In this document: positions 14,090 through 33,964 of the stretch, piece by piece
How the letters are laid out: each line of letters opens with the position of its first letter
How positions within the stretch are numbered: the stretch's first letter is position 1
The notes under the pieces: generated by a model
What the model was told of the DNA's origin: nothing
The model's database searches: none
The model's input: only the letters and a program-made list of their open reading frames with translations
Made by a program: the position numbers and the translations under genes
Origin: an uncultured SAR86 cluster bacterium
GTDB lineage: Bacteria; Pseudomonadota; Gammaproteobacteria; Magnimaribacterales; D2472
Assembly (NCBI GenBank): GCA_902560315.1
Contig: CACELG010000002.1
Location: forward strand, 64,442-128,441
Direction of reading: 5' to 3'
DNA length: 64,000 nt

Positions 14090-14113
14090 TATTTTTATGA
14101 GTTAAAATAAAGA

Positions 14114-14491: not shown

Positions 14492-14597
14492 GCCTGGATT
14501 AAAACTAAGTTAAATTGAAGCTCGTTTAGATTCCATACACTTAGCAAAAAACAATAGAAAATTTCTTAAAGACAATTGATAGATTATAATTAAAAAT

Positions 14598-15371
14598 ATG
14601 AAAGTAATAGTGGTAAGTGGTGGGTTTGATCCATTGCATTCAGGCCATATTTCTTATTTTAAAGATGCAAGAAGTCATGGAGATAAGCTAATCGTTGCTT
14701 TAAACAGTGATGACTGGCTCGAAAAGAAGAAAGGCAAATTCTTTATGCCTTTTTCAGAAAGAAAGCTAATCATTGAAAATTTAAAGTTTATAGACGAAGT
14801 GATTGATTTTGAAGATGATGAAATTGGTAGTTGCATTAATGCTCTTGAAAAAGTTAAAGATTTACATGTAAATGATGAGATATATTTTGCAAATGGTGGT
14901 GATAGGGATAAAGAAAATATTCCTGAAATGTCAGTTGATGGCATTAATTTTTTATTCAAGATAGGAGGCGATGAGAAAAAAAACTCCTCCTCATCCATTT
15001 TAAAAAAATGGCAAAATTATCATGAAGAAAGAATTTGGGGTGCTTTTTACAACTTATTTGAATCTGATGATGTAAAAGTAAAAGAGTTGATTGTTGATCC
15101 AGGCAAAGGCATGAGTTTTCAAAAACATTTTAAAAGGTCAGAAATATCAATAGTAAGCAAAGGATCATGCATTATAAATTACAGCAAAGATAATCCAGAC
15201 GATAGAAAAGATATACAATTAAACAAATTTGATTATTATTTCGTTCCTGTTGGTGAGTGGCATCAAATCACAAATCCATTTGATAAACCATGCCATCTTA
15301 TTGAAATTCAATATGGTGAGTCTTGTGTTGAAGAAGATATTGAAAGAATAGATTATTACGATCCAAAATAA
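14598..15371 (+). CDS. Nucleotidyltransferase fused to mannose-6-phosphate isomerase-type cupin
   Basis: A 257-residue two-domain protein. Residues 1-~140 form a cytidylyltransferase-like fold: VVSGGFDPLHSGHISYF has the HxGH nucleotide-binding motif, followed by ALNSDDWL and later SSSSILKKW, as in HldE/RfaE C-terminal and glycerol-3-phosphate cytidylyltransferases. From about 142, EERIWGAFYNLFE through GEWHQITNPFDKPCHLIEIQYG matches the cupin end of ManC/mannose-6-phosphate isomerases. The fusion suggests activation of a sugar or polyol phosphate linked to isomerisation, but the substrate is unknown. A TATAAT hexamer at 14585-14590 could be its -10 box. Confidence 0.75.
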   Translation: MKVIVVSGGFDPLHSGHISYFKDARSHGDKLIVALNSDDWLEKKKGKFFMPFSERKLIIENLKFIDEVIDFEDDEIGSCINALEKVKDLHVNDEIYFANGGDRDKENIPEMSVDGINFLFKIGGDEKKNSSSSILKKWQNYHEERIWGAFYNLFESDDVKVKELIVDPGKGMSFQKHFKRSEISIVSKGSCIINYSKDNPDDRKDIQLNKFDYYFVPVGEWHQITNPFDKPCHLIEIQYGESCVEEDIERIDYYDPK

Positions 15372-15385
15372 TTTAATAAAGTCAA

Positions 15386-17167
15386 TTGAAGATAGATATA
15401 AAAAAAGTTCCAAATACTCCAGGAGTATATAAATTCTTAAATAATCAAGAAATTATTTATATTGGTAAAGCAAAAGATCTAAAAAAAAGAGTTTCTTCTT
15501 ATTTTGGAAACTCCTATAAAGACAGAAAAACATCTCAAATAAAGTTTCTTACTGATAAAGTTGAGACCTTCACGACAAAAAATGAAGTTGAGGCTTTATT
15601 GTTGGAACAATCTCTGATAAAGGAGAACAAACCAAAATTTAATATTCTTTTAAGAGATGATAAAACATACCCCTACATATATTTTTCACTAGATCACGAA
15701 TATCCTGGAGTTTATTTGAAAAGAACAAAAAAAAGTGTTGATAAAAAATACTTTGGACCGTTCGTAAGCTCTGAGGCTGTTAAAAAATCAATAAAAGAAA
15801 TTCAAAAAATTTTTAAAGTTAGAAATTGTACTGATAATACTTTTGCAAATAGAACAAGACCATGTATTGAGTTTCAGATGAAAAGGTGCTCCGCTCCATG
15901 TGTTCAAAAAATAAACAAATTAGATTACTTTGAAGATATTACAAGTTCAAAATCGTTTTTAACATCTTCAGATACCAAAACTATAGAACGACTAACCAGA
16001 GAAATTGATGAAGCTGTATCAAAACTTGATTTTGAGAAGGCTGCTGATATCAGAGATCGTCTTAATAGATTGAATCTTTTGAAAGAGGAACAATCAGTAG
16101 TGACGTTAGCAAATGATATTGATATTTTCTCAGTTAGCTCAGAAATGAGTTATTTAGGAGTATCAATTATTGTTGTAAGAAATGGAAAAATTAGAGGAAC
16201 TAAAACACATTTAATTAAACAAGCCTTTTACAGTTCATTTGATGAAGTCTATCGAAGTGCAATATTTAATTTTTATGAACATCAATTGGATATTCCCAAC
16301 AAAATTTTATGCGCTTATCAATTGAAAGATAAAAAAATTCTTGAGGATATGTTTAAAAGTAAGCACCAAAAGAAATTAAGGATTATACATTCACCAAACA
16401 AGTCTATTAGACCAATATTTAATTTATGCAAGCTTAATGCACAACAAGTAATAAAAAATCATATTAGTAAAGAGGACAAATATACCTTTGCTTTAAATGA
16501 GCTTTGTGGGTATGTAGGAAGAGAAGAAATTAATAAAATTGAAGCATATGATGTAAGTCATATCTCCGGGGAAAGTGGAGTTGCATCTTCTGTAGTATTT
16601 TCAAAGACAGGACCAGAAAAAAAAAGTTACAGGCTTTTTAATATACCAAATCATTTATCTGGTAATGATGTTGGTTCTTTAGAGCATGTTTTAGAAAGAA
16701 GAATCAAATATTTTGATGATCCAAAAGTAAAACCGGATTTGCTGTTGATTGATGGTGGCAAAACACAATTAGAATTTGTAAATTCAGTTTTAGATAAATC
16801 AGAGCATAAAGATCTAAAAGCAATATCTATAGTAAAAGGATCAAATAGAATTAGAGCAACTGAGACAATAATTAGTAGAGATGGAATTTTAGAGCTTGAT
16901 AAAAATTCTAAAGCTTTTCTAATTTTACAAGAAATGCGAGATGAGTCTCATAGGTTTGCAATTCAAGCTCAGAGAAAGAAAAAAAGAAAGACAATATCTA
17001 AATCAGAATTGGATTCAATAAAAGGTATTGGAACGATCTTAAAAAGAAGATTACTTAAAAAATTTAAAAGTATAAAAAACATAAAAACTGCAAATTTATC
17101 TGATTTAATGACTGTTGAAGGTATAAATGAGAAAATAGCAGTACTTATAATAAAGAAATTTAAATGA
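15386..17167 (+). CDS. uvrC: Excinuclease ABC subunit C
   Basis: A 593-residue nucleotide excision repair nuclease. The GIY-YIG domain (about 8-85; GVYKFLNNQEIIYIGKAKDL) makes the 3' incision. A UVR motif near 200-235 (DEAVSKLDFEKAADIRDRL) contacts UvrB. The RNase H-like domain for the 5' incision has YDVSHISG near 390, LLIDGGKTQLEF near 453 and RDESHRFA near 513. Two helix-hairpin-helix motifs close the protein. The start is TTG; no ATG lies before the GIY-YIG domain. It overlaps pgsA by 4 bp. Confidence 0.96.
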   Translation: MKIDIKKVPNTPGVYKFLNNQEIIYIGKAKDLKKRVSSYFGNSYKDRKTSQIKFLTDKVETFTTKNEVEALLLEQSLIKENKPKFNILLRDDKTYPYIYFSLDHEYPGVYLKRTKKSVDKKYFGPFVSSEAVKKSIKEIQKIFKVRNCTDNTFANRTRPCIEFQMKRCSAPCVQKINKLDYFEDITSSKSFLTSSDTKTIERLTREIDEAVSKLDFEKAADIRDRLNRLNLLKEEQSVVTLANDIDIFSVSSEMSYLGVSIIVVRNGKIRGTKTHLIKQAFYSSFDEVYRSAIFNFYEHQLDIPNKILCAYQLKDKKILEDMFKSKHQKKLRIIHSPNKSIRPIFNLCKLNAQQVIKNHISKEDKYTFALNELCGYVGREEINKIEAYDVSHISGESGVASSVVFSKTGPEKKSYRLFNIPNHLSGNDVGSLEHVLERRIKYFDDPKVKPDLLLIDGGKTQLEFVNSVLDKSEHKDLKAISIVKGSNRIRATETIISRDGILELDKNSKAFLILQEMRDESHRFAIQAQRKKKRKTISKSELDSIKGIGTILKRRLLKKFKSIKNIKTANLSDLMTVEGINEKIAVLIIKKFK

Positions 17168-17703
17168 TGATTAAGCTAATTAACATTCTTACATTAATAA
17201 GAATTTTTATTGCGGTGGTAATTTTTACTTTTTTAGCAATTAAGAACTATTACTTGCTTGCATTATTTCTATTTTTTATCGCTGGTTTAACTGATTATTT
17301 TGATGGTTTTTTAGCAAGAAAATTCAACGCAACATCTCAACTTGGGGAGATTTTAGACCCCTTGGCAGATAAAATTTTAATTATTTTTTTATTTTTTGGC
17401 CTAGCAGTAAATTTGTCTAGTTTTCTAATAGGATTCGCAGGATCTTTAATTCTCTCGAGAGAAATTTGGATAAGCGCATTAAGAGATTACAATTCAAGAA
17501 ATAATAATGTTAATGCTACTAAGGTTATTTATATTGCTAAGATTAAAACAAGCGTTCAATTACTAACAATTTTTATTTATCTTACAGGCCTAGCATTTAA
17601 TAAAATGCTATTAATTGTATTTGGGGATATATTTTTGATAATTTCTGTCTTGGTGACAATATACACCGGCTATCTCTACACCATTAATAGTTTTAAGAAT
17701 TAA
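17164..17703 (+). CDS. pgsA: CDP-diacylglycerol-glycerol-3-phosphate 3-phosphatidyltransferase
   Basis: A 179-residue inner-membrane CDP-alcohol phosphatidyltransferase committing CDP-diacylglycerol to phosphatidylglycerol. The catalytic motif D-x2-D-G-x2-A-R-x8-G-x3-D-x3-D is complete in DYFDGFLARKFNATSQLGEI continuing to LDPLADK (about 44-69). Several membrane helices are evident. Length matches E. coli PgsA (182). It is coupled to uvrC and followed by tRNA genes, the same uvrC-pgsA-tRNA order seen in E. coli. Confidence 0.95.
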   Translation: MMIKLINILTLIRIFIAVVIFTFLAIKNYYLLALFLFFIAGLTDYFDGFLARKFNATSQLGEILDPLADKILIIFLFFGLAVNLSSFLIGFAGSLILSREIWISALRDYNSRNNNVNATKVIYIAKIKTSVQLLTIFIYLTGLAFNKMLLIVFGDIFLIISVLVTIYTGYLYTINSFKN

Positions 17704-20801: not shown

Positions 20802-22613
20802 ATGTTTAAAATTGTAAAAGATCTTTTTAGTATACTGACAACAAGTCAAAGAAGGCATTTTTATCTTCTTCAAGTTTTGGTTATAGTGATGTCACTAACC
20901 CAGATATTAGGCATTGCGTCAATAATACCTTTTATGGCCTTGGTTGGTGATTTAAGTCAGCTTCAACAAGATACTATTATTGCAGAAGTTTATAAGTTGA
21001 GCGGCTTGAGCTCAGAATCACAATTCGTATTTTGGTTGGGATTAAGTGTTTTAATAATGTTATTTTTTGGATCAATTATTTCTATGTATACAACATGGAG
21101 AACTACATTATTTGCAAATAAAATTAGTGTTGAAATTGCTGATAGACTATTTACACATTATCTAAAACAGGATTGGTTGTTTCATGCATCAGGCAGTAGC
21201 GCTCAATTGACAAAACATATAGCGACTGAAACCCTAAGGATAAACATCGGCATTTTGATGCCTTTAATGAATTTGAATGCATATGTTGTATTAGTGATAT
21301 CTATGAGCATAAGTATTTTTATTTTTGATCCAACTGTTGCGACTGTTGGTTTTATAGTATTTGCATTATCTTATTATTTCATTTTTAAACTAGTTAACCT
21401 TACATTGTTAAAAAATGGTAGGTCAATATCGGAAATGAATGAAAAACGTTATCGCCTAATGAATGAAGGATTTGGTGGCATAAAAGATGTTTTGTTATTA
21501 GGAAGACATAGTGACTTTATAAATCGTTTCTATAAAACTGGAGTAGTGTTTGCATATAGCCAAGGCGTTAATAACGCATTAGGATATGCGCCACGTTATT
21601 TTATGGAACTAATTGCTTTTGGCTCGATGATAGCACTCATACTTTATTTATTTACAAGTTACGAGGCAAACTTAAGCTCAATTCTTCCAATACTTTCTGT
21701 ATATGCTATTGCCGGTGTAAAACTGTTGCCAGCATTCCAAGGAATATATAGTGCCTTGGCGTCGATTAGAGCAAATACAGGAGCCTATGAAGCAATTCAG
21801 CAAGATTTAATTGATTCATCAGAAATAAAACCTGCGACAAATAAATCTAAGACAGTTAAAAAAGAAAAAAGCTATCTAAATCCTAAAAAACAAATTTCGC
21901 TAGAAAATATTTCATTTAGATATCCTGGTAAAAAAGAATCAGTTTTAAATCAAATGAATATATCAATACCAGTTAAAAAAGTAATTGGAATAGTTGGACC
22001 GTCTGGATCTGGAAAATCAACTCTAGTTGATATTTTACTTGGTTTGATAGAACCCCAAAAAGGATTCTTAAAGATAGACGGTAAAATTATAAATAATCAA
22101 AATCGTAGATCTTGGCAAAATACTATTGGTTTCGTAGCACAAGCAATATTTTTATCAGAGGGCACCATTGCAGAAAATGTAGCTTTTGGTCTTTCAAAGA
22201 ATCAAATTAACTTTAAGCAAGTAGAAAATGCATTAAAGTTAGCTAATCTTGAAGAATTTGTAAAAGACCTAAAAAATGGAATTCATACTAAAGTTGGAGA
22301 GAGAGGAGTTCAGCTTTCCGGTGGACAGCGTCAACGAATTGGAATTGCTAGAGCTTTATATCATCAAGCAGAGGTACTAGTATTTGACGAGGCAACTAGT
22401 TCTCTTGATGGAATAACTGAAAAAATGATTATGCAAGCTGTGCACAAATTTAGTGATCAAAAAACCATTATAATGATTGCTCATCGCCTGAAAACAGTAG
22501 AAAAATGTGATCAGATATTTTTTATTGACGAAGGAATAGTTGCTGATCAAGGCACTTTTCAAGAATTAATAGAAAAAAATGAAAAGTTTAAAAATATGGC
22601 AATTCATGCATGA
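20802..22613 (+). CDS. ABC transporter ATPase-permease, PglK/MsbA-like flippase
   Basis: A 603-residue half-transporter. Six membrane helices fill about 1-320; the nucleotide-binding domain follows with Walker A GPSGSGKST near 399-407, signature LSGGQRQRIGIARAL near 505-519, Walker B VLVFDEATSSLD and the switch His in IAHRL. Within a glycan locus that has no Wzx-like protein, the best guess is export of an undecaprenyl-linked oligosaccharide, as PglK does in Campylobacter. A lipid or peptide exporter cannot be ruled out. Confidence 0.8.
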   Translation: MFKIVKDLFSILTTSQRRHFYLLQVLVIVMSLTQILGIASIIPFMALVGDLSQLQQDTIIAEVYKLSGLSSESQFVFWLGLSVLIMLFFGSIISMYTTWRTTLFANKISVEIADRLFTHYLKQDWLFHASGSSAQLTKHIATETLRINIGILMPLMNLNAYVVLVISMSISIFIFDPTVATVGFIVFALSYYFIFKLVNLTLLKNGRSISEMNEKRYRLMNEGFGGIKDVLLLGRHSDFINRFYKTGVVFAYSQGVNNALGYAPRYFMELIAFGSMIALILYLFTSYEANLSSILPILSVYAIAGVKLLPAFQGIYSALASIRANTGAYEAIQQDLIDSSEIKPATNKSKTVKKEKSYLNPKKQISLENISFRYPGKKESVLNQMNISIPVKKVIGIVGPSGSGKSTLVDILLGLIEPQKGFLKIDGKIINNQNRRSWQNTIGFVAQAIFLSEGTIAENVAFGLSKNQINFKQVENALKLANLEEFVKDLKNGIHTKVGERGVQLSGGQRQRIGIARALYHQAEVLVFDEATSSLDGITEKMIMQAVHKFSDQKTIIMIAHRLKTVEKCDQIFFIDEGIVADQGTFQELIEKNEKFKNMAIHA

Positions 22614-22628
22614 GGATATTGAAGAAGT

Positions 22629-23825
22629 ATGAATGAAAAAGAAGTATTAAATTTAATTGGGCGAACAAATGAACTTTTTGAGGCAGATATAAATATGCAT
22701 GATAAAGAGCTTAAAAAAATAGTTTCTTTATCTTCTTTTCTTGTTATCGGTGGAGCTGGATCAATCGGACAAGCAGTAGTTAAAGAAATTTTTAAGCGCA
22801 ACCCAAAAAAAATTCACGTTGTCGATATTAATGAAAATAATTTAACTGAACTTGTTAGAGATATCAGAAGTTCACTTGGTTACATTGATGGTGACTTTAA
22901 TACTTTTGCACTAGATATTGGCTCAATTGAATATGACGCATTTATTAAATCAGATGGTCACTATGATTATGTATTAAATTTATCTGCATTAAAACATGTT
23001 AGAAGTGAAGAGGATCCCTATACTTTAATGAGAATGATAGACATCAATATTTTTAATACAGATAAAACAATTAAACAATCTATTGAAAATTCTACAAAAA
23101 AATACTTTTGTGTGAGTACTGACAAGGCTGCTAATCCAGTTAACATGATGGGAGCTAGCAAAAGAATAATGGAGATGTTTTTGATGCAAAGATCAAAAGA
23201 AATCAATATATCTACTGCAAGATTTGCGAATGTAGCTTTTAGTGATGGATCATTGCTTCATAGCTTTAATCAAAGACTAAGTAAGATGCAACCAATTGCT
23301 GCACCTAGCGATATAAAACGTTACTTTGTAACACCAAAAGAAAGTGGGGAATTATGTTTAATGAGTTGCATTTTTGGTAATAACAGAGACATATTCTTTC
23401 CAAAATTAAGCGAATCTCTTCATTTAACAACTTTTTCTGAAATAGCTGTTAAATATTTAAAAATGAAAGGATTTGAGGCCCATATATGCTCTTCAGAAGA
23501 AGAAGCAAGAGATTTAGTGAAAACTCTTCCGGATCAGGGTATGTGGCCCTGTCTATTCACTGAAAGTGACACAACTGGAGAAAAAGATTTTGAAGAGTTT
23601 TTTACCAAGAACGAAAAACTTGATACGAGTAAGTTTAGTAGCTTAGGCATAATAAAAAATGAAGTAAGCTATAATGATGATCAATTAAATAGCTTTGAGG
23701 ACTCCATCAATAGATTAAAATACTGCGGAGTTTGGAATAAAGAAGATATTGTTGGTGAGTTTTTTAAGATAATTCCTAATTTTAATTATTGTGATAAAGG
23801 AAAGTATCTTGGTGAGAAAATGTGA
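22629..23825 (+). CDS. legB: NDP-GlcNAc 4,6-dehydratase (LegB-like)
   Basis: A 398-residue short-chain dehydrogenase-type enzyme of the CapD/PglF/LegB group. The NAD motif VIGGAGSIGQAV is at 39-50, and STDKAANPVNMMGASKRIME near 158-177 shows the active site with Met in place of the usual Tyr, as in CapD-type dehydratases. It is longer than PseB (about 330) because of an extra C-terminal region from about 285. Directly followed by a LegC-type aminotransferase, it should make the 4-keto-6-deoxy intermediate for legionaminic acid. The nucleotide (GDP or UDP) is inferred only from the cluster. Confidence 0.75.
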   Translation: MNEKEVLNLIGRTNELFEADINMHDKELKKIVSLSSFLVIGGAGSIGQAVVKEIFKRNPKKIHVVDINENNLTELVRDIRSSLGYIDGDFNTFALDIGSIEYDAFIKSDGHYDYVLNLSALKHVRSEEDPYTLMRMIDINIFNTDKTIKQSIENSTKKYFCVSTDKAANPVNMMGASKRIMEMFLMQRSKEINISTARFANVAFSDGSLLHSFNQRLSKMQPIAAPSDIKRYFVTPKESGELCLMSCIFGNNRDIFFPKLSESLHLTTFSEIAVKYLKMKGFEAHICSSEEEARDLVKTLPDQGMWPCLFTESDTTGEKDFEEFFTKNEKLDTSKFSSLGIIKNEVSYNDDQLNSFEDSINRLKYCGVWNKEDIVGEFFKIIPNFNYCDKGKYLGEKM

Positions 23826-24964
23826 TGTTTGAAGATATTATTGATTTTATTCAGAAAACATACAAAACAAAAAATCTTATACCTCTTCACGAACCAAAAT
23901 TTTTTGGTAATGAAAAAAAATACCTAAACGAATGTATTGATTCAACTTTTGTTTCATCGGTTGGAAAATATGTAGACATATTTGAAAAAAAAATAGCAGA
24001 ATATACGGGTGCAAAATATGCAGTTGCAACAAGTAATGGTACATCTGCTCTACATATAGCACTTTTATTAGCTAACGTAGAAGACGGTGATGAGGTTATT
24101 ACTCAACCATTAACCTTTGTAGCAACTTGCAATGCGATTAGGTATTGTGGCGGCCGGCCCATTTTTATTGATGTTGATAAGGACACCATGGGTCTCTCAC
24201 CGACTGCACTAAGATCTTTTTTAGCAAATAATACAACAATAAAAAATAAGAGATGCATAAATAATTCAACAGGCAAAGTAATAAAAGCCTGCATGCCTAT
24301 GCATACTTATGGACATCCTTGCAAAATAGATGAAATAAAAGAAATTTGCATTCAATACTCCTTAATTTTAATTGAAGATGCTGCTGAGAGTATTGGCAGT
24401 AAGTTTAAACAAAAGCACACTGGAACTTTTGGGCAAATAGGTATTATGAGTTTCAATGGAAATAAGATTATTACAGCAGGTGGTGGAGGATGTATTATTA
24501 CTGATAATCATACCTTAGCAAAAAAAGCTAAACATCTCACCACAACTGCTAAAGTTCCACATAAGTGGAACTTTAATCATGATATGGTGGGATATAATTA
24601 TCGTATGCCAAACCTTAATGCTGCTTTGGTTGTAGCTCAGCTTGAGAATATAGATAAATTTATTTCCAGCAAACGGCAGTTAAGCGAGGATTATAAAGCT
24701 TTCTTTAGCAATATAGATTGTACTTTTTTTGAAGAACCAATTAATAGTAAATCAAATTACTGGTTAAACACTATTGTTTTTAAAAATAAAAAACAAAGAG
24801 ATTTATTTTTAAAGATAACTAATGATAATGGCATAATGACAAGGCCTATTTGGCAATTAATGAATGAGCTTGAGATGTTTAAGTCTTATGAATGCACAAG
24901 TATAGATAATGCTAAATATCTAGAAGAAAGATCCGTAAATATTCCAAGTAGCCCAACATTTTAG
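23822..24964 (+). CDS. legC: LegC-family PLP aminotransferase
   Basis: A 380-residue DegT/DnrJ/EryC1-type sugar aminotransferase. It shows ATSNGTSALHIALLLANV near 63-80, the Asp of IEDAAESIGS near 182-191, and the PLP lysine in SFNGNKIITAGGGG near 211-224. It transfers an amino group to C4 of the 4-keto sugar made by the preceding enzyme. The start overlaps legB by 4 bp. The C-terminus ends abruptly after NIPSSPTF, slightly short; a gap with junk-like sequence follows, so a small 3' rearrangement is possible. Confidence 0.82.
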   Translation: MMFEDIIDFIQKTYKTKNLIPLHEPKFFGNEKKYLNECIDSTFVSSVGKYVDIFEKKIAEYTGAKYAVATSNGTSALHIALLLANVEDGDEVITQPLTFVATCNAIRYCGGRPIFIDVDKDTMGLSPTALRSFLANNTTIKNKRCINNSTGKVIKACMPMHTYGHPCKIDEIKEICIQYSLILIEDAAESIGSKFKQKHTGTFGQIGIMSFNGNKIITAGGGGCIITDNHTLAKKAKHLTTTAKVPHKWNFNHDMVGYNYRMPNLNAALVVAQLENIDKFISSKRQLSEDYKAFFSNIDCTFFEEPINSKSNYWLNTIVFKNKKQRDLFLKITNDNGIMTRPIWQLMNELEMFKSYECTSIDNAKYLEERSVNIPSSPTF

Positions 24965-25078
24965 GAGATACAAAAATTATGAAAAATGTTTCATTGCAAG
25001 TGATCAATTATTGATTTTGATATAAATGAGCAAAGAATTGTAAATGTTCCTTGCAGGGTAAGATTTTTTGGCAAAAAA

Positions 25079-26026
25079 ATGAATATACTTTTAACAAACT
25101 CTGGAAGACGGACATACATGGTCAAATATTTATTTGAACTAAAAGATTCTTATAATAATTCAATAGAAATATTTTTGTCTGATACATCTGAAGATGTTCC
25201 AAGTTTTTGGGTTGATCAAAGATCTAATAATATCCTTACACCAAGGGTTGATAGAGATGAAAACCAATATATAAAAATTTTATTAGAAAAGTGTAAGAAA
25301 AATAAGATCGATATATTGATACCATTAATGGATTACGAGCTTCACCTACTTGCTAAAAATGTAAATAAGTTTATTGATATTGGTACTTTTGTTGTTGTAT
25401 CAGATTTTAATACAGTCTCAAATTGTTTAAATAAAGATAAATGCTATATTTTTTGTAATGAGCACAATATAGCAGTTCCAAAAACATGGAATTCAAAGAA
25501 TCAAATCGAATCAAGTAAAAGCATAGTTGTAAAAAAAATTAATGGAAGTGGAAGTCTAGATATGCACCTATTTAACTCAAAAGAAGAAATACCATCATAT
25601 TTTGATAATACTTTTTTATATCAAGAATATATTAGTGGCCAAGAATATGGGATGGATGTTCTTAATGATTTTGATGGTAATTTCATTCACTGCTGTGTTA
25701 AAAAAAAGATATCTATGAGATCAGGAGAAACTGATAAGGCTGAAGTGGTTTATGATCTTAGGTTTAACCAATTAGCTCAAAAGATAAGTGCTGTATTTAA
25801 ACATGTTGGAAATCTTGATATTGATTTTATAATTGATAATTCTGACGATATTTATTTTATTGACTTCAATCCAAGATTTGGAGGGGGGTACCCATATACT
25901 CATTTGGCTGGATTTGATTATCTAAAAGCACTCCATAAACTCAGTATTGGAGAAAAGGTTTCGATGGACTTTAAAGGAAAAGAAATTATTGGAATGAAGG
26001 GTATAGAAGTATATACATTAGGATAG
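25079..26026 (+). CDS. ATP-grasp ligase of unknown substrate
   Basis: A 315-residue carboxylate-amine/thiol ligase-type ATP-grasp protein. N-terminal pre-ATP-grasp fold (NILLTNSGRRTYMVKYL), then the ATP-binding lysines and GSGS loop near 157-163, LYQEYISGQEYGMDVL near 181-196, and metal-binding residues in YFIDFNPRFGGGYPYTH near 260-276. Proteins of this kind activate a carboxylate as acyl phosphate and join it to an amine. Its location inside a legionaminic acid cluster suggests attaching an acid to an amino sugar, but that is inference. Confidence 0.75.
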   Translation: MNILLTNSGRRTYMVKYLFELKDSYNNSIEIFLSDTSEDVPSFWVDQRSNNILTPRVDRDENQYIKILLEKCKKNKIDILIPLMDYELHLLAKNVNKFIDIGTFVVVSDFNTVSNCLNKDKCYIFCNEHNIAVPKTWNSKNQIESSKSIVVKKINGSGSLDMHLFNSKEEIPSYFDNTFLYQEYISGQEYGMDVLNDFDGNFIHCCVKKKISMRSGETDKAEVVYDLRFNQLAQKISAVFKHVGNLDIDFIIDNSDDIYFIDFNPRFGGGYPYTHLAGFDYLKALHKLSIGEKVSMDFKGKEIIGMKGIEVYTLG

Positions 26027-26047
26027 TCAAATTAGTTTATATAAAAA

Positions 26048-26989
26048 ATGAATAAGTTATTAATAACAGTTCCGATGAAGACTAATGATATAGATAGGAT
26101 TATTAATCTTGGTTATGAAGTGAGCGTATGCTTAGAAAATGATTTATCTTTTGAAAAATCTATTCATAATTTTAAAGACATAGATTGTATGATATGCCAC
26201 AACCCGTTTAAAAAAGTACTTTTTGATGATTTTGAAAATTTAAAATGGATTCAGCTTACAAGTTCTGGTTTTGAACATTTACCTTTAAATAATATTGTGA
26301 ATAGAGATATTTTAATAACTAATAATAGTGGTGCTTTTAGCGTTGCAGTTGCTGAATGGATTGTTATGAGAATTCTTGAATCTTTCAAGAATAGCTTCAA
26401 AATTTTTGAAAATCAGAAAAAAAAATTATGGAAAACTGATTACTCTGTAAGAGAATTATATGGGAGTTCAATTGGATTTATTGGCACAGGTAATGTTGCA
26501 AAAGAGACAGCAAAAAAACTAAGCACTTTTGGAGTTAAGATAATTGGCTTGAATAGATCTGGTCGCTCTGTTGACTATTTTGATAATACATATTCATTAT
26601 CAAATATTACTGATTTTATTAAATTATGTGATGTAGTTGTATTAGCTGCGCCACTGAATGATGATACTTTTCATATTATCAATGATGAATTTCTAAATAC
26701 TGCAAAAAAGGGGATAACATTAATTAACATTGCTCGTGGTAACTTGATAGATGAAATGGCACTTATAAAAGCTATCCATGAAAAGAAAATTATTTTTGCT
26801 GCTCTTGATGTTTTTGAAAATGAACCACTATCATCGGATAGTGAAATGTGGGATACAGATCAAATTATTATATCGCCTCATAATGCATGGATTTCAGAAG
26901 AGTCTAAGGATAGAAAATTTAGTATCGTATTTAGGAATTTGAAAAATTTTATCGAAAACAAACCTTTGGAAAATATTATTTTAAAGTAA
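26048..26989 (+). CDS. D-isomer-specific 2-hydroxyacid dehydrogenase
   Basis: A 313-residue NAD-dependent dehydrogenase. NAD motif IGFIGTGNVAKETAKKL near 138-154; catalytic Arg in NIARGNLIDEMAL near 226-238, Glu in DVFENEPL near 255-262, and His in SPHNAWISEE near 278-287. This is a complete active site. The family reduces 2-ketoacids to D-2-hydroxyacids or the reverse. With the flanking aminotransferase and ATP-grasp genes it could prepare a hydroxy acid or keto acid for decoration of the glycan. The substrate is not predictable. Confidence 0.8.
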   Translation: MNKLLITVPMKTNDIDRIINLGYEVSVCLENDLSFEKSIHNFKDIDCMICHNPFKKVLFDDFENLKWIQLTSSGFEHLPLNNIVNRDILITNNSGAFSVAVAEWIVMRILESFKNSFKIFENQKKKLWKTDYSVRELYGSSIGFIGTGNVAKETAKKLSTFGVKIIGLNRSGRSVDYFDNTYSLSNITDFIKLCDVVVLAAPLNDDTFHIINDEFLNTAKKGITLINIARGNLIDEMALIKAIHEKKIIFAALDVFENEPLSSDSEMWDTDQIIISPHNAWISEESKDRKFSIVFRNLKNFIENKPLENIILK

Positions 26990-27082
26990 TAGTTTAAATT
27001 TAAAAAAATACTTTATAAATTGTTCATTTTAAAGAGTTTTAGTAAAGGATTATAATTATTAAAAGCTATAAGGAGATAAAGA

Positions 27083-28258
27083 GTGATTATCAGACCTGAA
27101 ATTGGAGAGGATGTAACAATGGAGTTTGCTTCTGTTGCCAGGGAAATGAACAAAAAAAATATTGATATAATTTCATTTGGCTTAGGGGAGCCAGATTTCT
27201 CTACTCCTAAACATATAATAGACGCTTCAAAAAAAGCGCTCGATAAAGACCCCTATAGAAGATATTCAAATCCATTAGGACTATATGAGTTAAGAAAAGA
27301 AATATCTATAAGAGAAAAGAGAGTCAATAAAAATGAAATTAATCCTGAAAATATTATTGTAACACCAGGAGTAAAGCAGGCATTATTTCTAAGTTTGTTA
27401 AGCACCTTAGAACCCGAAGATGAAATAATTAATTTTTCACCATCATATGTTTGTTATATTCCAGATATTTATCTTGCTGAACCAAATGCTGTTATTAAAA
27501 ACATCAAACTAAAAAATGACTTCACCATAGACATAGATGAATTGAAAAATAATATTACAGATAAAACTAAGGTTATTTTAATTAATTCTCCTCACAATCC
27601 AACAGGTAAGATGATTAGTAAGATAGAAAGAGATGAGATAGCTAAAATAGCAATTGAAAAAAATATCTATATCATTTCAGATGAAATTTATGACTTGATG
27701 TGCTTTTCAGGTAAAGAACATTTTGGTTTTGGTTCAATAAATGAACTTAAGGATCTAATAATCACTGTTAATGGATTTAGTAAAGCTTATTCTATGACTG
27801 GATGGAGAATTGGTTATGCTATTGCACCAGCACATTTAATAAATACAATGCGAAAAATACAACTTCATACAAATACCAATACATGTGGTTTTATCCAAAT
27901 GGGTGCCATTGAAGCCTTAAGAGGAAACCATTCGCATTTAACTAAGTTTAATTCAGAACTTATTGAGAAAGTTAAAATTATGACTAAATACCTCAGTAAA
28001 GATGTTATGACATCACCAACAGAAGGAGGCTTTTTTTCTTTTTTGAATATCTCAAAGACTGGTTTAAGTTCAAATGCTTTCTCCGCTCAATTTATCAAGG
28101 AATGCAGAGTTGCCACCTCTCCTGGAATAGCTTTTGGCAAAGAATGGGATACTCATATTAGGGTTTCGTTAATTGAGAATGTAGAGCGTTTTCGTAAAGG
28201 CATAGTAAAATTAGCAAGTTTCATATCAAAGTATGAAAAAATTAACAAAAGGATATAA
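27083..28258 (+). CDS. Class I/II PLP aminotransferase
   Basis: A 391-residue fold type I aminotransferase (aspartate aminotransferase group). FGLGEPDFSTPKHI near 32-45 is the substrate region; NSPHNPTGK near 168-176 and SDEIYD near 199-204 bind PLP; the Schiff-base lysine lies in NGFSKAYSMTGWRIGYA near 229-245; the substrate carboxylate Arg is in HIRVSLIEN near 354-362. The GTG start is preceded by a clear AAGGAG at 27070-27075, and 93 bp of noncoding sequence with TATAAT at 27051-27056 may hold an internal promoter. Confidence 0.82.
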   Translation: MIIRPEIGEDVTMEFASVAREMNKKNIDIISFGLGEPDFSTPKHIIDASKKALDKDPYRRYSNPLGLYELRKEISIREKRVNKNEINPENIIVTPGVKQALFLSLLSTLEPEDEIINFSPSYVCYIPDIYLAEPNAVIKNIKLKNDFTIDIDELKNNITDKTKVILINSPHNPTGKMISKIERDEIAKIAIEKNIYIISDEIYDLMCFSGKEHFGFGSINELKDLIITVNGFSKAYSMTGWRIGYAIAPAHLINTMRKIQLHTNTNTCGFIQMGAIEALRGNHSHLTKFNSELIEKVKIMTKYLSKDVMTSPTEGGFFSFLNISKTGLSSNAFSAQFIKECRVATSPGIAFGKEWDTHIRVSLIENVERFRKGIVKLASFISKYEKINKRI

Positions 28259-28260
28259 AA

Positions 28261-28785
28261 ATGTTTGATGGAAATAGTATTTATTTAAGATTAATAGAAA
28301 AAGAAGATTGCGTTTATAGAACTAATTGGGTAAATGATGAAGAAATTCGAAAAACACTTATGTTTGATTGGCCTTTATCATTATCAGGAACAGAAAAATG
28401 GTTTGATATGCAAGATCTTGATCCAAAAAAAAGAAATTTTATGATTATATCTAAGGATTCAAATCTGCCAATTGGAATAACAGGGCTAATCGACATTGAT
28501 TTTAGACATTTAAGAGGGCAGTTTTATATGACAATTGGTGAAAAAGATTATTGGGGTAAACGTATTCCTGATGAATCTATACCTTTAATTTTAAATTATG
28601 GCTTTAATGAGCTTGGCTTAAATAGAATCTATCTATACACCTTAAATAATAATGAAAGAGCAAGAAAGGTTTATGAAAGAAATGGATTTACTAATGAAGG
28701 AACACTTAGAAAACATTATTTTTGTGTTGGGGAATATCAAGACTTAATGGTTATGAGTGTTTTAAAAGATGATTTTAAGATTTAA
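28261..28785 (+). CDS. GNAT acetyltransferase (PseH/LegH-like)
   Basis: A 174-residue GCN5-type N-acetyltransferase of the RimJ/PseH group. It opens IYLRLIEKEDC, and YMTIGEKDYWGKRIPDESIP near 90-109 leads into NELGLNRIYLYTLNNNERARKVYERNGF near 117-144, the acetyl-CoA-binding core. In a legionaminic pathway this step acetylates the C4 amino group of the dideoxy sugar. It lies 2 bp after the aminotransferase and 14 bp before the synthase gene. Confidence 0.75.
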   Translation: MFDGNSIYLRLIEKEDCVYRTNWVNDEEIRKTLMFDWPLSLSGTEKWFDMQDLDPKKRNFMIISKDSNLPIGITGLIDIDFRHLRGQFYMTIGEKDYWGKRIPDESIPLILNYGFNELGLNRIYLYTLNNNERARKVYERNGFTNEGTLRKHYFCVGEYQDLMVMSVLKDDFKI

Positions 28786-28799
28786 CAAAAAAAACTGTA

Positions 28800-29813
28800 A
28801 TGCCAAAAACATATATTATTGCTGAAATTGGGCCGAATCATAACGGAAGTTATGATATGGCCCTAGAATTAATTGAAAAATTAGCTGGCATTGGTGTTGA
28901 TGCGGTTAAATTTCAATTGGGTGATGCAAGAAATTCTTTATCGCTAGATTCTTTTAAAGCTGATTATCAAAAAAAAAATGATAATGCAGAAGATATATTT
29001 GAAGCAACAAAAAAAAGACAGTTATCTCACGAATCCCATAAGAAGCTTGCAATTAAGTGCAAAGAGTTGAATGTTGATTATCTTTGTACAGCATTTGATA
29101 TAGATAGTTTGATATTTTTAGATCAAGAGATAGATGTTCCTAAATTTAAAATTGCTTCTGGAGAGATTTTCTCAATTGACTTGCTTGAATACATGGTTAT
29201 GAAGAATAAGCCTTTGATATTATCAACTGGAATGGCTTCATTTGAAGAAATAGAGAGGGTGTATGAAATACTTTCTTCAAAATCAAAAAATAAAGATATA
29301 ACGATTCTTCATTGTGTAACAAGCTATCCTGCATCATTGGAATCGATCAATCTAAATGTGATGCTCGAACTTAAAGAAAAATTTAAAACAAAAATAGGGT
29401 ATTCAGATCATACTTTAGGAAATATTGCATCTCTTTCTGCCGTTGCTATGGGAGCCTCCATAATTGAAAAGCATGTGACACTTGATAAATCATTACCAGG
29501 ACCTGATCACAAAGCTTCTGCAACTATTAGTGAATTCAAGAATTTAGTGAAAAATATCCGTGAAATTGAAATCATTAAAGGCAGTTATGAAAAAATTTTC
29601 TCAAAAACTGAAGTAGATATATCAAAGGTTGCCAGAAAAAGCATTGTTGCTAAGCACTTAATAAAAAAAGGCACAATTATAAAAATAGAGGATATATGCT
29701 TCAAACGTCCTGGAATTGGATTTTTACCAATAGACAAGCATATGGTTTTAGGTAAAACAGCCATTACAGATATTGAGGAAAATAGGGTTATAAGAGAAGA
29801 GCAAATTTCATGA
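28800..29813 (+). CDS. legI: NeuB-family nonulosonate synthase (LegI-like)
   Basis: A 337-residue synthase that condenses PEP with a 6-carbon amino sugar to give a 9-carbon nonulosonic acid. The NeuB barrel opens with IIAEIGPNHNGSYDMALELI, and includes KIASGEIFSIDLL, LSTGMASFEEIE, IGYSDHTLGN near 200-209 and EKHVTLDK near 223-230. A C-terminal SAF/antifreeze-like domain (about 275-337) completes it. Neighbouring LegB/LegC-type genes favour legionaminic acid over sialic acid as product. Confidence 0.85.
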   Translation: MPKTYIIAEIGPNHNGSYDMALELIEKLAGIGVDAVKFQLGDARNSLSLDSFKADYQKKNDNAEDIFEATKKRQLSHESHKKLAIKCKELNVDYLCTAFDIDSLIFLDQEIDVPKFKIASGEIFSIDLLEYMVMKNKPLILSTGMASFEEIERVYEILSSKSKNKDITILHCVTSYPASLESINLNVMLELKEKFKTKIGYSDHTLGNIASLSAVAMGASIIEKHVTLDKSLPGPDHKASATISEFKNLVKNIREIEIIKGSYEKIFSKTEVDISKVARKSIVAKHLIKKGTIIKIEDICFKRPGIGFLPIDKHMVLGKTAITDIEENRVIREEQIS

Positions 29814-30925
29814 AAATTGCCTTCATTACTGGAGCCAGATCTGATTATGGACCATTTAGAAGCACATTAAAGGCTATTTCCCTAGATCAAAATTTTAATT
29901 TAGATATTTTAGTTCATGGAATTCATTTCTTAGATTCCTTTGGAAATTCTATTAATGAAATAAAAAGAGATAGCTTTGGGAAGATTGTAAAATTAGAAAC
30001 CATCACTTCACAGGAGGAAAAATCAATTGAAATGATAGACACTTTTAAGGTGTTGAATAATTTTTTAAATAGTAGTTCATATAATTTAGTAGTAATTGTA
30101 GGTGATAGGCTTGAAGCATATGCAGCAGCACTTGCAGCCCATTTTGCAAAGATACCAATATTGCACTCGGGAGGAGGCCATATTACAAATGGCGCTATTG
30201 ATAATATTTACAGATATAATATTACTAATCTATCTAAATATCATCTGACTACTTCAAGAAAAGCCTTCGATACGCTGAGAAATTTACCAAGCATAAATTT
30301 TAATAATGTCCACTTTACTGGCTCACCCACAGTAGATGCAATCAAAAGCTATCTCATTTCTCCAATACATATTGAAAAATATGTTCCAAATCTCTCTAAA
30401 AAAAAATATATTCTTATTACTTTTCATCCTGTAACTTTAATTAATGAGCCTGTTGTAGAAATTATGAAAGCAGTAGTGGAGTATTTAAGCTCGAAAAACA
30501 TTCATATGTTGATCACATATCCAAATAATGATGAAAAAAGTAATGAAATTACGGCATACATAGATAGTATTAAAAAATACAAAAATATTCATGTAATTCC
30601 TCATCTTGGTTCTAATGCATATTTTAGTGCAATTTATTGCTCTGAATTTGTTATTGGTAATTCTAGCAGTGGTTCTATGGAAGTACCTTATTTTAAAAAA
30701 CATGTATTAAATATAGGGACTCGTCAAGAGGGAAGAGCTTTAGATAAATCTGTTACAAATGTTGATGCAGATAGTGCTGAAGTGATAAAAGTTTTAAGTT
30801 CAATATTAAATAAAGATGTTTCATTGTTAAATAATGAAGAGCTATATGGAGATGGGTCAGCAATAGAAAAAACTTTAAAAATTTTAAAAAAAATTTCTGC
30901 TGAGGGGTTAAAGAATCATGATTGA
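29810..30925 (+). CDS. legG: Hydrolysing NDP-GlcNAc 2-epimerase (NeuC/LegG-like)
   Basis: A 371-residue GT-B-fold hydrolysing 2-epimerase. It starts IAFITGARSDYGPF, and shows VVIVGDRLEAYAAALAAHFAK near 96-116, HSGGGHITNGAIDN near 121-134, HFTGSPTVDAIK near 169-180 and VIGNSSSGSMEVPYF near 282-296. These are hallmarks of NeuC/LegG rather than the unrelated PseG, which argues for legionaminic or sialic acid and against pseudaminic acid. It overlaps legI by 4 bp. Confidence 0.85.
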   Translation: MKIAFITGARSDYGPFRSTLKAISLDQNFNLDILVHGIHFLDSFGNSINEIKRDSFGKIVKLETITSQEEKSIEMIDTFKVLNNFLNSSSYNLVVIVGDRLEAYAAALAAHFAKIPILHSGGGHITNGAIDNIYRYNITNLSKYHLTTSRKAFDTLRNLPSINFNNVHFTGSPTVDAIKSYLISPIHIEKYVPNLSKKKYILITFHPVTLINEPVVEIMKAVVEYLSSKNIHMLITYPNNDEKSNEITAYIDSIKKYKNIHVIPHLGSNAYFSAIYCSEFVIGNSSSGSMEVPYFKKHVLNIGTRQEGRALDKSVTNVDADSAEVIKVLSSILNKDVSLLNNEELYGDGSAIEKTLKILKKISAEGLKNHD

Positions 30926-31964
30926 TTTAAAAAAATTGGAAATATTTGAAGATACAACAATTAGAGAAGCTATAAAGGCTATTGATAGAGGCAATTTGCA
31001 GTTGGCCATAGTTGTTGACAAAAAGAGAAGATTATTAGGTACTCTAACTGATGGTGATATTAGAAGAGGTATTTTAAGTGGCCTTGATACTGAAAGTAAT
31101 ATTAAAGGTATATACTTTAGATCCCCATTGGTGGCTACATTAGCAGAATCAAAAAAAGATATTTTACAAAAGGCACTTGATAGAAAAATACATCAAGTTC
31201 CTATAATTGATGAGAATCAACATGTAATTGATATCAGACAAATAGAAGAGCTTATTAAACCAAGGGAAAAAAGCAATAAGGTAGTATTGATGGTAGGAGG
31301 ATTGGGAACTAGGTTAAAACCTTTAACAGAAAAGATACCCAAACCATTACTTAAAGTTGGTAGCAAAACAATACTAGAGACTATCCTATCAAGGTTCCTC
31401 GAGTATGGGTATAAAAATATTTTAATGTGTGTTAATTATAAATCAGATATGATTCAGGAATTTTTTGGTGACGGCAGTAAATTTGGTGTAAGCATAGAGT
31501 ATATCTTAGAGGATAAGAGGATGGGAACTGCAGGAGCACTTAGTTTGCTAAAAGATAAAATATCTGAACCATTTTTTGTTATGAATGGAGATTTGCTAAC
31601 CGATATTAATTTTGAAAATATGCATAATTTTTTTGTTTCCGATGAAGCTGATGCTCTTATGTGCGTTAGAGAGTATGAATTCCAAATTCCTTATGGAGTT
31701 GTTAATACTGATAATATTCGAATTAAATCAATTCAAGAAAAGCCTTCTCATAAATTTTTTGTAAACGCAGGTATCTATATGCTCAGTCCTAAGGTATTAA
31801 AATACGTCCCAAAAAATGAGTTTTATAATATGACCACCCTTTTTGAAACGCTAATAGAAAAAAATAGAAAAGTAATTTCATTTCCTCATGAGGGTTATTG
31901 GATGGATATTGGTAGGTTTGAAGAATATGAGAAAGCCAATACCGAATTTAATAATATATTTTAA
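30918..31964 (+). CDS. CBS-domain sugar-1-phosphate nucleotidyltransferase (PtmE-like)
   Basis: A 348-residue protein. A tandem CBS pair (about 1-115; GTLTDGDIRRGIL and QVPIIDENQHVID) precedes a nucleotidyltransferase domain starting VVLMVGGLGTRLKPLTEKIPK near 120-140 with the metal-binding Asp in VMNGDLLTDI. In Campylobacter the PtmE protein of this architecture makes GDP-glucosamine for the legionaminic pathway; that is the likely role here. It overlaps the previous gene by 8 bp and the next by 1 bp. Confidence 0.78.
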   Translation: MIDLKKLEIFEDTTIREAIKAIDRGNLQLAIVVDKKRRLLGTLTDGDIRRGILSGLDTESNIKGIYFRSPLVATLAESKKDILQKALDRKIHQVPIIDENQHVIDIRQIEELIKPREKSNKVVLMVGGLGTRLKPLTEKIPKPLLKVGSKTILETILSRFLEYGYKNILMCVNYKSDMIQEFFGDGSKFGVSIEYILEDKRMGTAGALSLLKDKISEPFFVMNGDLLTDINFENMHNFFVSDEADALMCVREYEFQIPYGVVNTDNIRIKSIQEKPSHKFFVNAGIYMLSPKVLKYVPKNEFYNMTTLFETLIEKNRKVISFPHEGYWMDIGRFEEYEKANTEFNNIF

Positions 31965-32662
31965 TGCCTCTTAATAAAAAAATTTTAGCTGTTATTTTGG
32001 CAAGAGGTGGAAGTAAAAGGCTTCCAAGAAAGAATGTAATACCTTTATGCAAAAAACCGCTTATTTCATGGACTATTGAAGCGGCATTAAAATCAAAATA
32101 CATTGATAAACTTGTTGTCTCAAGTGATGATGATGAGATTCTAAACATTTCAAATAACTTAAAAGTAACCAGCATTAAAAGGCCTAGTGAACTAGCTACT
32201 GATCAGTCTACTTCTTATGATGCACTATTACATGTACTAAAAAATTTTACAGGTTATGAATATATAGTTCTGCTTCAGCCCACAAGCCCGTTAAGAGATG
32301 AAAGTCATATTAATCAAGCAATAGAGCTTGTAAATAAAAAAAATGCAGAAGCAGTCGTAAGTGTTTGCCAGGAAAGACATAATCTAACAAAGTCATTTTC
32401 ATTAGACAAAAGTTTGCTAATACATAATTTAAATAAGAAAGATGATGAATTAAATAAAAATTCTAACATGAAAAATTTTTATAAGTTAAATGGCGCAATA
32501 TATATATGCAAAGTTGAACAATTTTTGAAAGAAAAAAGCTTCCTAATAAAAAATAAAACTTTCGCATATATTATGAGCGAAGAATGCTCGATAGATATTG
32601 ATGAGCAAACAGATTTTGAACTTGCTAGTTTATATATGTCAAAAAAACTTTGCGTTAATTAA
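31964..32662 (+). CDS. legF: CMP-legionaminate/sialate cytidylyltransferase
   Basis: A 232-residue CMP-nonulosonate synthetase. LAVILARGGSKRLPRKN near 5-21 is the CTP-binding signature; SSDDDEIL, RPSELATDQSTS and LLQPTSPLRDESHI near 99-112 are also typical of NeuA/LegF/PseF. It activates the nonulosonic acid as CMP-sugar, the last cytosolic step. It starts on the stop of the preceding gene (TAATG). Confidence 0.87.
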   Translation: MPLNKKILAVILARGGSKRLPRKNVIPLCKKPLISWTIEAALKSKYIDKLVVSSDDDEILNISNNLKVTSIKRPSELATDQSTSYDALLHVLKNFTGYEYIVLLQPTSPLRDESHINQAIELVNKKNAEAVVSVCQERHNLTKSFSLDKSLLIHNLNKKDDELNKNSNMKNFYKLNGAIYICKVEQFLKEKSFLIKNKTFAYIMSEECSIDIDEQTDFELASLYMSKKLCVN

Positions 32663-32704: not shown

Positions 32705-33964
32705 ATGATTATAAGCAATTGGAAAAGATTATTTGCATCTATGAATTATTTCTTGAAGCTCATTTTCTTTAAAAAAGAATACGATGTAGTTTTTGTAAGT
32801 TCAGTTTATTTCAATAGAGGCCATAATGGTGAAAACGCATTATTAAAACCAATGATTGAATCTTGCAAAAAAAATAATCTTAACTTTGTGATTTTTGAGG
32901 ATGCTGATCTGAAAGGTGAATACAAAAACTTTCGTAGATCCAATAATTCAATACCTTTTGATTTTATATCATTAGTCCAGGTTATTTTAAGAAAATTTTT
33001 TAATCTCATTTATAAAAATTCATTATCAGAAAATAAAAAATATATAGGAGATCCCAAAACTTCTAATGTGCTAAAAAATTTTTTTTTTAGAAAGTTTAAT
33101 TCAAAAGTTTATATAACTCTTTTATGGAACAATATTACTTTATGGAGAAGTATTGACCCTGATTCGTGCGTTGTTGACTACCAGCATGGTGTAATATATG
33201 ACGGCCATCTTGGATATATTAAAGATGGTCGGCCACCGAAAATAAAATCAGCTAATGACATAGTTACATTAGTTTATGGACAAAGTTTTAAGGATATACT
33301 GATAGATGGTGATAAATCTAATTTTTATGGCGAGAACAATGTCGTAAAGGTTGGTATAAAAAAAGAATCTAAATTTAAAAATTTGCCTCAACGTAATACT
33401 AGGAAAATACTTTTTTCTTTACAAATTGTTCCTGGGCTTGATGTTAAATTAGTTAATAATTATATTGATGACATTAATAAACTCATTACATTTAACAAAG
33501 ACTTTTTAACTAAAAATAATTATAAAATAATCTTCAAACATCATCCTAGATACACCACATATAATTGCCCAAAAATTAATTTTGAAGAAGACTTTATTGA
33601 TTTTGATAATCAAACACCGATTTTAGATTTATTAAATACTGCTTCCATCCATATGACATTCCATTCTACTTCAGCCTTTGATGCCGCAATGATAGGAATT
33701 CCTACAATATTCATAGATATGTTAGGAGAAATGTCGCCTGAGGAGATATTTTTAAATCAGTATAAATATCCATGCAAAGATATGGTAATAAAAGATTGTA
33801 AAGATTTAGAAAAAATACTAGTAGACATTGATAATAAAGAAATCTTTATTAATAAATGCGATGATGTATATCAATGGTCACAGGCCTTTTACAATGATTT
33901 TGATGAAAAAATATTTGAAGATTTTTTATCAAAGAAAGTAAATAAACATATTCTTAATAATTGA
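32705..33964 (+). CDS. Putative glycosyltransferase, GT-B-like, unrecognised family
   Basis: A 419-residue protein I do not recognise confidently. The C-terminal half has IIFKHHPRYTTYNC near 276-289 (an HP motif) and HMTFHSTSAFDAAMIGIPTI near 317-336 (a conserved His-Ser-Thr pattern before a small-residue helix). These resemble the HP and S/T motifs of sialyltransferases/polysialyltransferases and CDP-glycerol-type transferases that use CMP- or CDP-donors. Its position right after the CMP-sugar synthetase makes it the best candidate for the legionaminic acid transferase. Very A+T-rich. Confidence 0.5.
   Translation: MIISNWKRLFASMNYFLKLIFFKKEYDVVFVSSVYFNRGHNGENALLKPMIESCKKNNLNFVIFEDADLKGEYKNFRRSNNSIPFDFISLVQVILRKFFNLIYKNSLSENKKYIGDPKTSNVLKNFFFRKFNSKVYITLLWNNITLWRSIDPDSCVVDYQHGVIYDGHLGYIKDGRPPKIKSANDIVTLVYGQSFKDILIDGDKSNFYGENNVVKVGIKKESKFKNLPQRNTRKILFSLQIVPGLDVKLVNNYIDDINKLITFNKDFLTKNNYKIIFKHHPRYTTYNCPKINFEEDFIDFDNQTPILDLLNTASIHMTFHSTSAFDAAMIGIPTIFIDMLGEMSPEEIFLNQYKYPCKDMVIKDCKDLEKILVDIDNKEIFINKCDDVYQWSQAFYNDFDEKIFEDFLSKKVNKHILNN

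Follow-up and report, generated by a model that had tools for sequence, protein, structure and literature searches.

A putative ATP-grasp acylation block with matched NeuB and NeuC in a legionaminic acid locus of an uncultured SAR86 cluster bacterium

Gene clusters for legionaminic acid (Leg) have been described in several bacteria. The lgaA-G genes of Acinetobacter baumannii produce Leg5Ac7Ac (PMC9676051), Escherichia coli O61 produces the 8-epimer 8eLeg5Ac7Ac (PMC3628348), and the O-antigen of E. coli O161 contains Leg5NAc7N-(D-alanyl), as listed in a review table and not in the primary paper (PMC10609480). ATP-grasp enzymes have appeared in two further glycan systems: ATP-grasp mutants lose the peptidylamido-sugar of the C. 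difficile type B flagellin (PMC5207246), and an ATP-grasp gene lies in the Shewanella oneidensis sfm cluster for an enlarged nonulosonate glycan. Here, a cassette of ten genes was analysed in a stretch of 64,000 nucleotides (the window) from an uncultured SAR86 cluster bacterium. Judged from its sequence, this locus probably makes a cytidine monophosphate (CMP)-activated legionaminic acid with an unusual acyl group on N-7, destined for a surface polysaccharide.

An earlier note on this DNA had reported a near-complete CMP-Leg pathway made up of consecutive genes. All seven enzymes that it named are encoded on the + strand within 22629-32662, as found by open reading frames, hidden Markov models (HMM) and Pfam, but three genes between LegC and the GNAT acetyltransferase had been omitted. 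These three genes look like members of the Leg system. The Leg-type assignment stood, whereas the reading as an ordinary pathway is incomplete, as it misses a putative acylation block that includes a NeuB and a NeuC of its own. The cassette consists of the following genes:

22629..23825, + strand: LgaA/Elg-type nucleotide-sugar 4,6-dehydratase (PF02719; active-site signature SxDK...MGxSK; match to structure 3pvz at E 6.6e-197)
23822..24964, + strand: LegC family 4-aminotransferase (TIGR04181; 72% identity to congener G020)
25079..26026, + strand: ATP-grasp carboxylate-amine ligase, proposed N-acyl ligase (PylC-like N domain and ATP-grasp_3)
26048..26989, + strand: D-2-hydroxyacid dehydrogenase (PF02826/PF00389)
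27083..28258, + strand: class-I pyridoxal phosphate (PLP) aminotransferase of the aspartate/aromatic type (PF00155, relatives in the Protein Data Bank, PDB)
28261..28785, + strand: GNAT N-acetyltransferase, proposed cap or 4-N-acetyltransferase (PF13302)
28800..29813, + strand: NeuB-family nonulosonate synthase of the ATP-grasp-linked clade (TIGR03569 score, trees)
29810..30925, + strand: NeuC-type hydrolysing 2-epimerase of the ATP-grasp-linked clade (TIGR03568, tree)
30918..31964, + strand: CBS-domain sugar-1-phosphate nucleotidyltransferase, PtmE/LgaF-like (PF00571 and PF00483; pairs with G020)
31964..32662, + strand: CMP-nonulosonate cytidylyltransferase, LegF/LgaG-like, of the non-8-epi clade (PF02348; trees; CMP-NeuAc synthetases in the PDB)

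Since these ten collinear genes belong to one pathway, chance is excluded as an explanation for the locus.

The core enzymes point to the type of nonulosonic acid. LegC scored 556 bits against TIGR04181 (cut-off 420), and the hydrolase scored 301 bits against TIGR03568 (NeuC_NnaA, cut-off 236) and is hence of the hydrolysing NeuC type and not PseG, both as the earlier note had proposed; the PtmE-like and LegF-like enzymes likewise carry the domains expected of them. Its LegB-like label for the first gene did not hold, as the LegB model TIGR04180 gave no match at E 1e-3 to the dehydratase at 22629-23825 and matched the dehydratases of other LegC loci (L085/L097) over the cut-off, so a LegB identity was ruled out by HMM in favour of the LgaA/Elg type. 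This dehydratase is 71-74% identical to those of the E. coli O61, O161 and NT1F31 Leg clusters (71% for O61) and 79% identical to that of G020. As to the NeuB/LegI assignment, the synthase is far from PseI (258 bits, cut-off 340), but with 368 bits it stays under the cut-off of 400 for TIGR03569 (NeuB_NnaB), which the NeuB proteins of G020 (512 bits) and O161 (487 bits) pass. The other pseudaminic acid (Pse) models also remained far under their cut-offs (PseB 74 of 408 bits, PseC 237 of 424). A Leg-type CMP-sugar, and neither Pse nor Neu, is well supported as the predicted product by three enzymes (the LegC equivalog, a dehydratase of the LgaA type and a hydrolase of the NeuC type) and by the orthologous genes in the Leg clusters of E. 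coli O61 and O161 and in the A. baumannii lga set. The carrier nucleotide would be uridine diphosphate (UDP) or guanosine diphosphate (GDP), and the PtmE-like enzyme hints at GDP.

The feature that sets this cassette apart lies on the LegC-NeuB side, in the slot that a hexapeptide (PglD-type) acetyltransferase fills in many relatives. That enzyme is not present in the window cassette; it is widespread among the relatives without being universal, and occurs in 17 of the 38 loci used for comparison, a set that includes truncated ones. In E. coli O161, whose antigen carries D-alanine on N-7 of Leg, a FemA/FemB-family protein takes this slot, which speaks for N-7 as the site of acylation. The ATP-grasp enzyme found there in the window has the ATP-grasp fold with conserved nucleotide and metal residues, and K152, N264 and R266 are conserved. 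Its AlphaFold model (pLDDT 84) matches PylC, glycinamide ribonucleotide (GAR) synthetase and L-amino-acid ligases, with Z of about 22-23 and a root mean square deviation of 3.0-3.2 over 276-294 residues in VIA-align at an identity of about 15%. In the reaction of GAR synthetase, an amino sugar is coupled with an amino acid. The neighbouring 2-hydroxyacid dehydrogenase retains the catalytic Arg/Glu/His, and its PDB relatives are glyoxylate, glycerate and phosphoglycerate dehydrogenases. The class-I aminotransferase shares 43-46% and the GNAT 41-45% identity with their counterparts in two loci from other bacteria (L029 and L039), and the GNAT reaches 62 bits against the PseH model (cut-off 93). 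Where most relatives have the hexapeptide acetyltransferase and canonical NeuB and NeuC, the window has this ATP-grasp/dehydrogenase/aminotransferase/GNAT set together with a NeuB and a NeuC that belong to it, so the product is probably an N-acyl variant and not Leg5,7Ac2.

Trees of NeuB and NeuC were built from six ATP-grasp loci and 23 other LegC-locus proteins. The NeuB proteins of the six ATP-grasp loci formed a single group with support of 100/100, and so did their NeuC proteins (100/100). A phylum effect as the source of the NeuB clade was rejected, since the clade remained intact at 100/99 after 34 Bacteroidota NeuB proteins from genomes without this ATP-grasp gene had been added as controls; the next closest relative of the Roseivirga NeuB in 295 Bacteroidota genomes was at most 46% identical, compared with 57% for the window NeuB. 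Residues fixed in the ATP-grasp-linked clades are P12, L28, Y94, C96, D127, V226 and I243 in NeuB and L41, P160, N240 and D312 in NeuC. The outer genes behave differently, as the window pairs with G020 in the trees of LegC (support 97), the CBS-domain nucleotidyltransferase (100) and the CMP-synthetase (88). At the same chromosomal site G020 carries an acetamidino-type Leg cluster (locus L030, G020:C1:15000-34500, at 8048-17465) with a PglD acetyltransferase, canonical NeuB and NeuC, HisF, HisH and a WbuX amidotransferase; none of this HisF/HisH/WbuX set was found among the open reading frames of the window cassette. Because NeuB and NeuC follow the ATP-grasp clade and LegC, the nucleotidyltransferase and the CMP-synthetase pair with G020, the middle was swapped as a block between conserved ends. 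Acetamidino and 8-epi genes, which are expected to act after NeuB, served as controls and did not track NeuB and NeuC (6 changes versus 7.4 in shuffled data for the acetamidino genes, 5 versus 5.5 for the 8-epi genes). These control trees agree with action of the ATP-grasp ahead of NeuC, although linkage might produce such a pattern too.

An alignment of the ATP-grasp was searched against about 85,000 species genomes and returned six loci, from Spirochaetales (L034), Flavobacteriaceae (L035), two Roseivirga (L036, L037), a gammaproteobacterium (L038, on the same contig as L029) and a Bacteroidetes metagenome-assembled genome (L039). These close relatives are 39-48% identical and all adjoin LegC and/or NeuB: NeuB and NeuC lie beside the ATP-grasp in five of the six, and LegC in every locus whose contig extends far enough. 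The whole block of GNAT, aminotransferase, dehydrogenase, ATP-grasp, NeuB and NeuC is common to the window, L029 and L039, and the remaining loci carry a PLP fold-II enzyme (PALP) in place of aminotransferase and dehydrogenase. The capping enzyme varies as well, with another GNAT in L035 and a formyltransferase plus methyltransferase in L037. A PLP amino-acid enzyme (aminotransferase or PALP) adjoins every ATP-grasp locus with enough context, and most also have an N-capping enzyme (GNAT or formyltransferase).

Closer to the host, the ATP-grasp gene is otherwise absent among 199 genomes of the order, and a search of 369 genomes of the class gave a match above E 1e-40 in a single genome apart from the window. 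A close LegC is found in six of 60 relatives of the order, so LegC loci are not exceptional there and this ATP-grasp variant (1 of 199) is the rare part. Viral sequences contained one distant ATP-grasp (25%) and no NeuB relative. Distant ATP-grasps (23-25%) were additionally seen near NeuB in other Bacteroidota and in an order-mate (loci L122, L135, L136, L144 and L031), with a NeuB of the canonical clade, and the use of ATP-grasp enzymes in nonulosonate loci may be wider than the close subfamily. A further distant copy (34%) resides on E. coli plasmids together with PALP, GNAT and a sugar aminotransferase in a deoxythymidine diphosphate (dTDP)-sugar cluster (L046/L047; NZ_LR890610.1, 23-33 kb), which occurs in 4 of 5426 E. 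coli genomes on IncR-type and similar plasmids. As this copy travels with PALP, GNAT and a sugar aminotransferase, a portable acylation kit is suggested.

The best reading of the product is CMP-5-N-acetyl-7-N-acyl-legionaminic acid, for which the following route is proposed. Nucleotide-linked N-acetylglucosamine (UDP or GDP) would come from general hexosamine metabolism and the PtmE-like enzyme, and the LgaA-type dehydratase and then LegC would convert it to a 4-amino-4,6-dideoxy sugar. In the manner of PylC, GAR synthetase and L-amino-acid ligases, the ATP-grasp enzyme would use ATP to activate a carboxylic acid and would join it as an amide to the newly formed 4-amine, which later becomes N-7. 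This acid would come from the class-I aminotransferase and the 2-hydroxyacid dehydrogenase, either as an amino acid or as its D-2-hydroxy counterpart. The GNAT might cap the amino group of the attached amino acid or act on another amine, and capping is its probable role in the case of an amino acid. Bacterial glycans often carry N-acetylated amino acids on their amino sugars. The matched NeuC would then hydrolyse and epimerise the sugar, the matched NeuB condense it with phosphoenolpyruvate and the CMP-synthetase activate the product. From the gene content, enzyme families and neighbourhood, the co-inheritance of NeuB and NeuC and the block replacement, we infer the substrate, the attachment position, the order of steps and an acyl group that is an amino acid (probably N-acetylated) or a 2-hydroxy acid, ligated before NeuC.

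Other explanations have to be weighed against this N-7 acylation. The locus could make plain CMP-Leg5,7Ac2 if the GNAT took the LegH role of 4-N-acetyltransferase and the other three enzymes (ATP-grasp, dehydrogenase, aminotransferase) served an unrelated purpose within the operon. All core Leg steps would then be covered, and the GNAT adjoins NeuB and is weakly PseH-like, but this is unlikely, as the same set recurs with LegC, NeuB and NeuC across phyla in changed order, NeuB and NeuC track the ATP-grasp, and in Roseivirga a formyltransferase stands in place of the GNAT with the ATP-grasp retained. The block might also act late, with free Leg, CMP-activated Leg or a different sugar of this polysaccharide as its target, as is thought for acetamidino genes. 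The distant plasmid copy that serves a dTDP-sugar cluster and the distant ATP-grasps that go with canonical NeuB proteins would agree with late action, yet late-acting modification genes do not track NeuB and NeuC as the ATP-grasp block does, and the block occupies the LegC-NeuB slot, which leaves late action improbable. The 8-epimer, made by E. coli O61 and A. baumannii K49, was first suspected because the closest solved structure to the dehydratase is 3pvz, which we take to be a Vibrio fischeri protein. The V. fischeri O-antigen holds 8-epi-Leg. The 71% identity to the dehydratase of the 8eLeg5Ac7Ac producer O61 (PMC3628348) points the same way, but the O61 cluster also showed which extra genes accompany the 8-epimer, and its Gfo/Idh plus oxidoreductase pair is not in the window locus. 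In the CMP-synthetase tree, which unlike the NeuB and NeuC trees does track the 8-epi genes, the window is not a member of the single clade (support 98; one change, 0 of 500 shuffles) that unites the loci with this pair. For these two reasons Leg is favoured and 8-epi-Leg very improbable.

Several points speak against a dedicated N-7 acylation. The GNAT could be an ordinary 4-N-acetyltransferase with the ATP-grasp acting elsewhere, and the co-inheritance of neighbouring genes could reflect linkage and not a common substrate. The NeuB of O161 belongs to the canonical clade although the O161 product is 7-N-D-alanylated, so an aminoacyl substrate alone needs no divergent NeuB, and the separate NeuB clade of the ATP-grasp loci may be due to a bulkier group or just to linkage. 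In the spirochaete locus L034, ATP-grasp and LegC occur with no NeuB nearby, and the close ATP-grasp subfamily comprises only seven loci. The dehydrogenases of L029 (7483-8463) and L039 (4969-5967) are without the catalytic Glu and have His changed to Tyr (SPYRAG) though they lie beside the ATP-grasp; as these copies lost both residues and are not clear orthologues, the role of the dehydrogenase may differ between loci.

The host genome comprises 1.08 Mb on 19 contigs at a G+C content near 30% and has a single NeuB gene. The cassette is part of a polysaccharide locus that also encodes glycosyltransferases and enzymes of UDP-sugar metabolism, and the two ends of the cassette are formed by a flippase on the left and, on the other side, a protein of unknown family that adjoins the CMP-synthetase:

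20802..22613, + strand: ABC transporter, PglK/MsbA-like flippase, left cassette boundary (PF00005/PF00664; 70% identity to the same-position gene in G020)
32705..33964, + strand: conserved unknown-family protein beside the CMP-synthetase, candidate Leg transferase (53% identity to the same-position gene in G020)

The latter gave no Pfam and no PDB match, but its position adjoining the CMP-synthetase is kept in two congeners, and we infer a candidate nonulosonate (Leg) transferase. Elsewhere in the window, a cytidylyltransferase-like N-terminus (SGGFDPLHSGH) is apparently fused with a cupin-like C-terminus at 14598-15371, as judged from sequence only, and a Thr/Gly-repeat surface-like protein with TGTGTG tracts is encoded at 52000-53895, in the stretch of highest GC.

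Taken further, a portable ATP-grasp acylation module with dedicated NeuB and NeuC might diversify N-7 of Leg with amino or hydroxy acids in Gammaproteobacteria, Bacteroidota and possibly Spirochaetota, and be exchanged as a block while the ends of the cassette are conserved; close relatives would then show differently decorated Leg at the same site. We consider this previously undescribed module possible, at slightly less than even chances. The sugar is of a known sort, and the acylation variant is apparently undescribed: a search of the open literature, which left most subscription journals outside its coverage, found no paper on this module, only the Shewanella and C. difficile flagellin work for legionaminic acid with ATP-grasp, and only a Leptospira paper for SAR86 with legionaminic acid. 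If true, acetyltransferases and FemAB-type proteins would not be the only enzymes that determine what sits on N-7 of sialic-acid-like sugars, as this module would add a third way, and it would provide a gene signature for predicting amino- or hydroxy-acid-decorated legionaminic acids from sequence. It would also mean that a streamlined marine lineage changes the acyl chemistry of its surface sugar by one block replacement, and altered recognition by phages and grazers would be expected with the rest of the polysaccharide unchanged.

Compared with known systems, the same ATP-grasp fold in PylC, GAR synthetase and L-amino-acid ligases forms an amide from a carboxylate and an amine, whereas the substrates differ. 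The ATP-grasp loci of C. difficile and Shewanella are alike by description; the C. difficile sugar is not a nonulosonate, and that of Shewanella is thought to be of the Pse type. With A. baumannii lgaABCDEFG and the E. coli elg genes the window shares the dehydratase family, LegC, NeuC, NeuB, the CBS-domain nucleotidyltransferase and the CMP-synthetase (PMC3628348, PMC9676051), for A. baumannii at the level of the gene set, but the NeuB and NeuC of the window fall into a separate clade. Clusters of the E. coli O61 type have a hexapeptide acetyltransferase, where the window has ATP-grasp, 2-hydroxyacid dehydrogenase, class-I aminotransferase and GNAT instead. E. coli O161 follows the order LgaA, LegC, FemAB protein, NeuB, NeuC, CBS-domain nucleotidyltransferase and CMP-synthetase, resembles the window in this order and in the amino acid on N-7 that is proposed here, and differs in the FemAB-family protein in the LegC-NeuB slot, a canonical-clade NeuB and no ATP-grasp. 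The GDP-linked pathway of Campylobacter jejuni (LegB, LegC, LegH, LegG, LegI, LegF and PtmE) has in common LegC, the hydrolysing epimerase, the synthase, the CMP-synthetase and a PtmE-like enzyme (PMC13317340), whereas the window is without a TIGR04180 LegB and without PtmG/HisF/HisH acetamidino genes and carries the extra acylation block.

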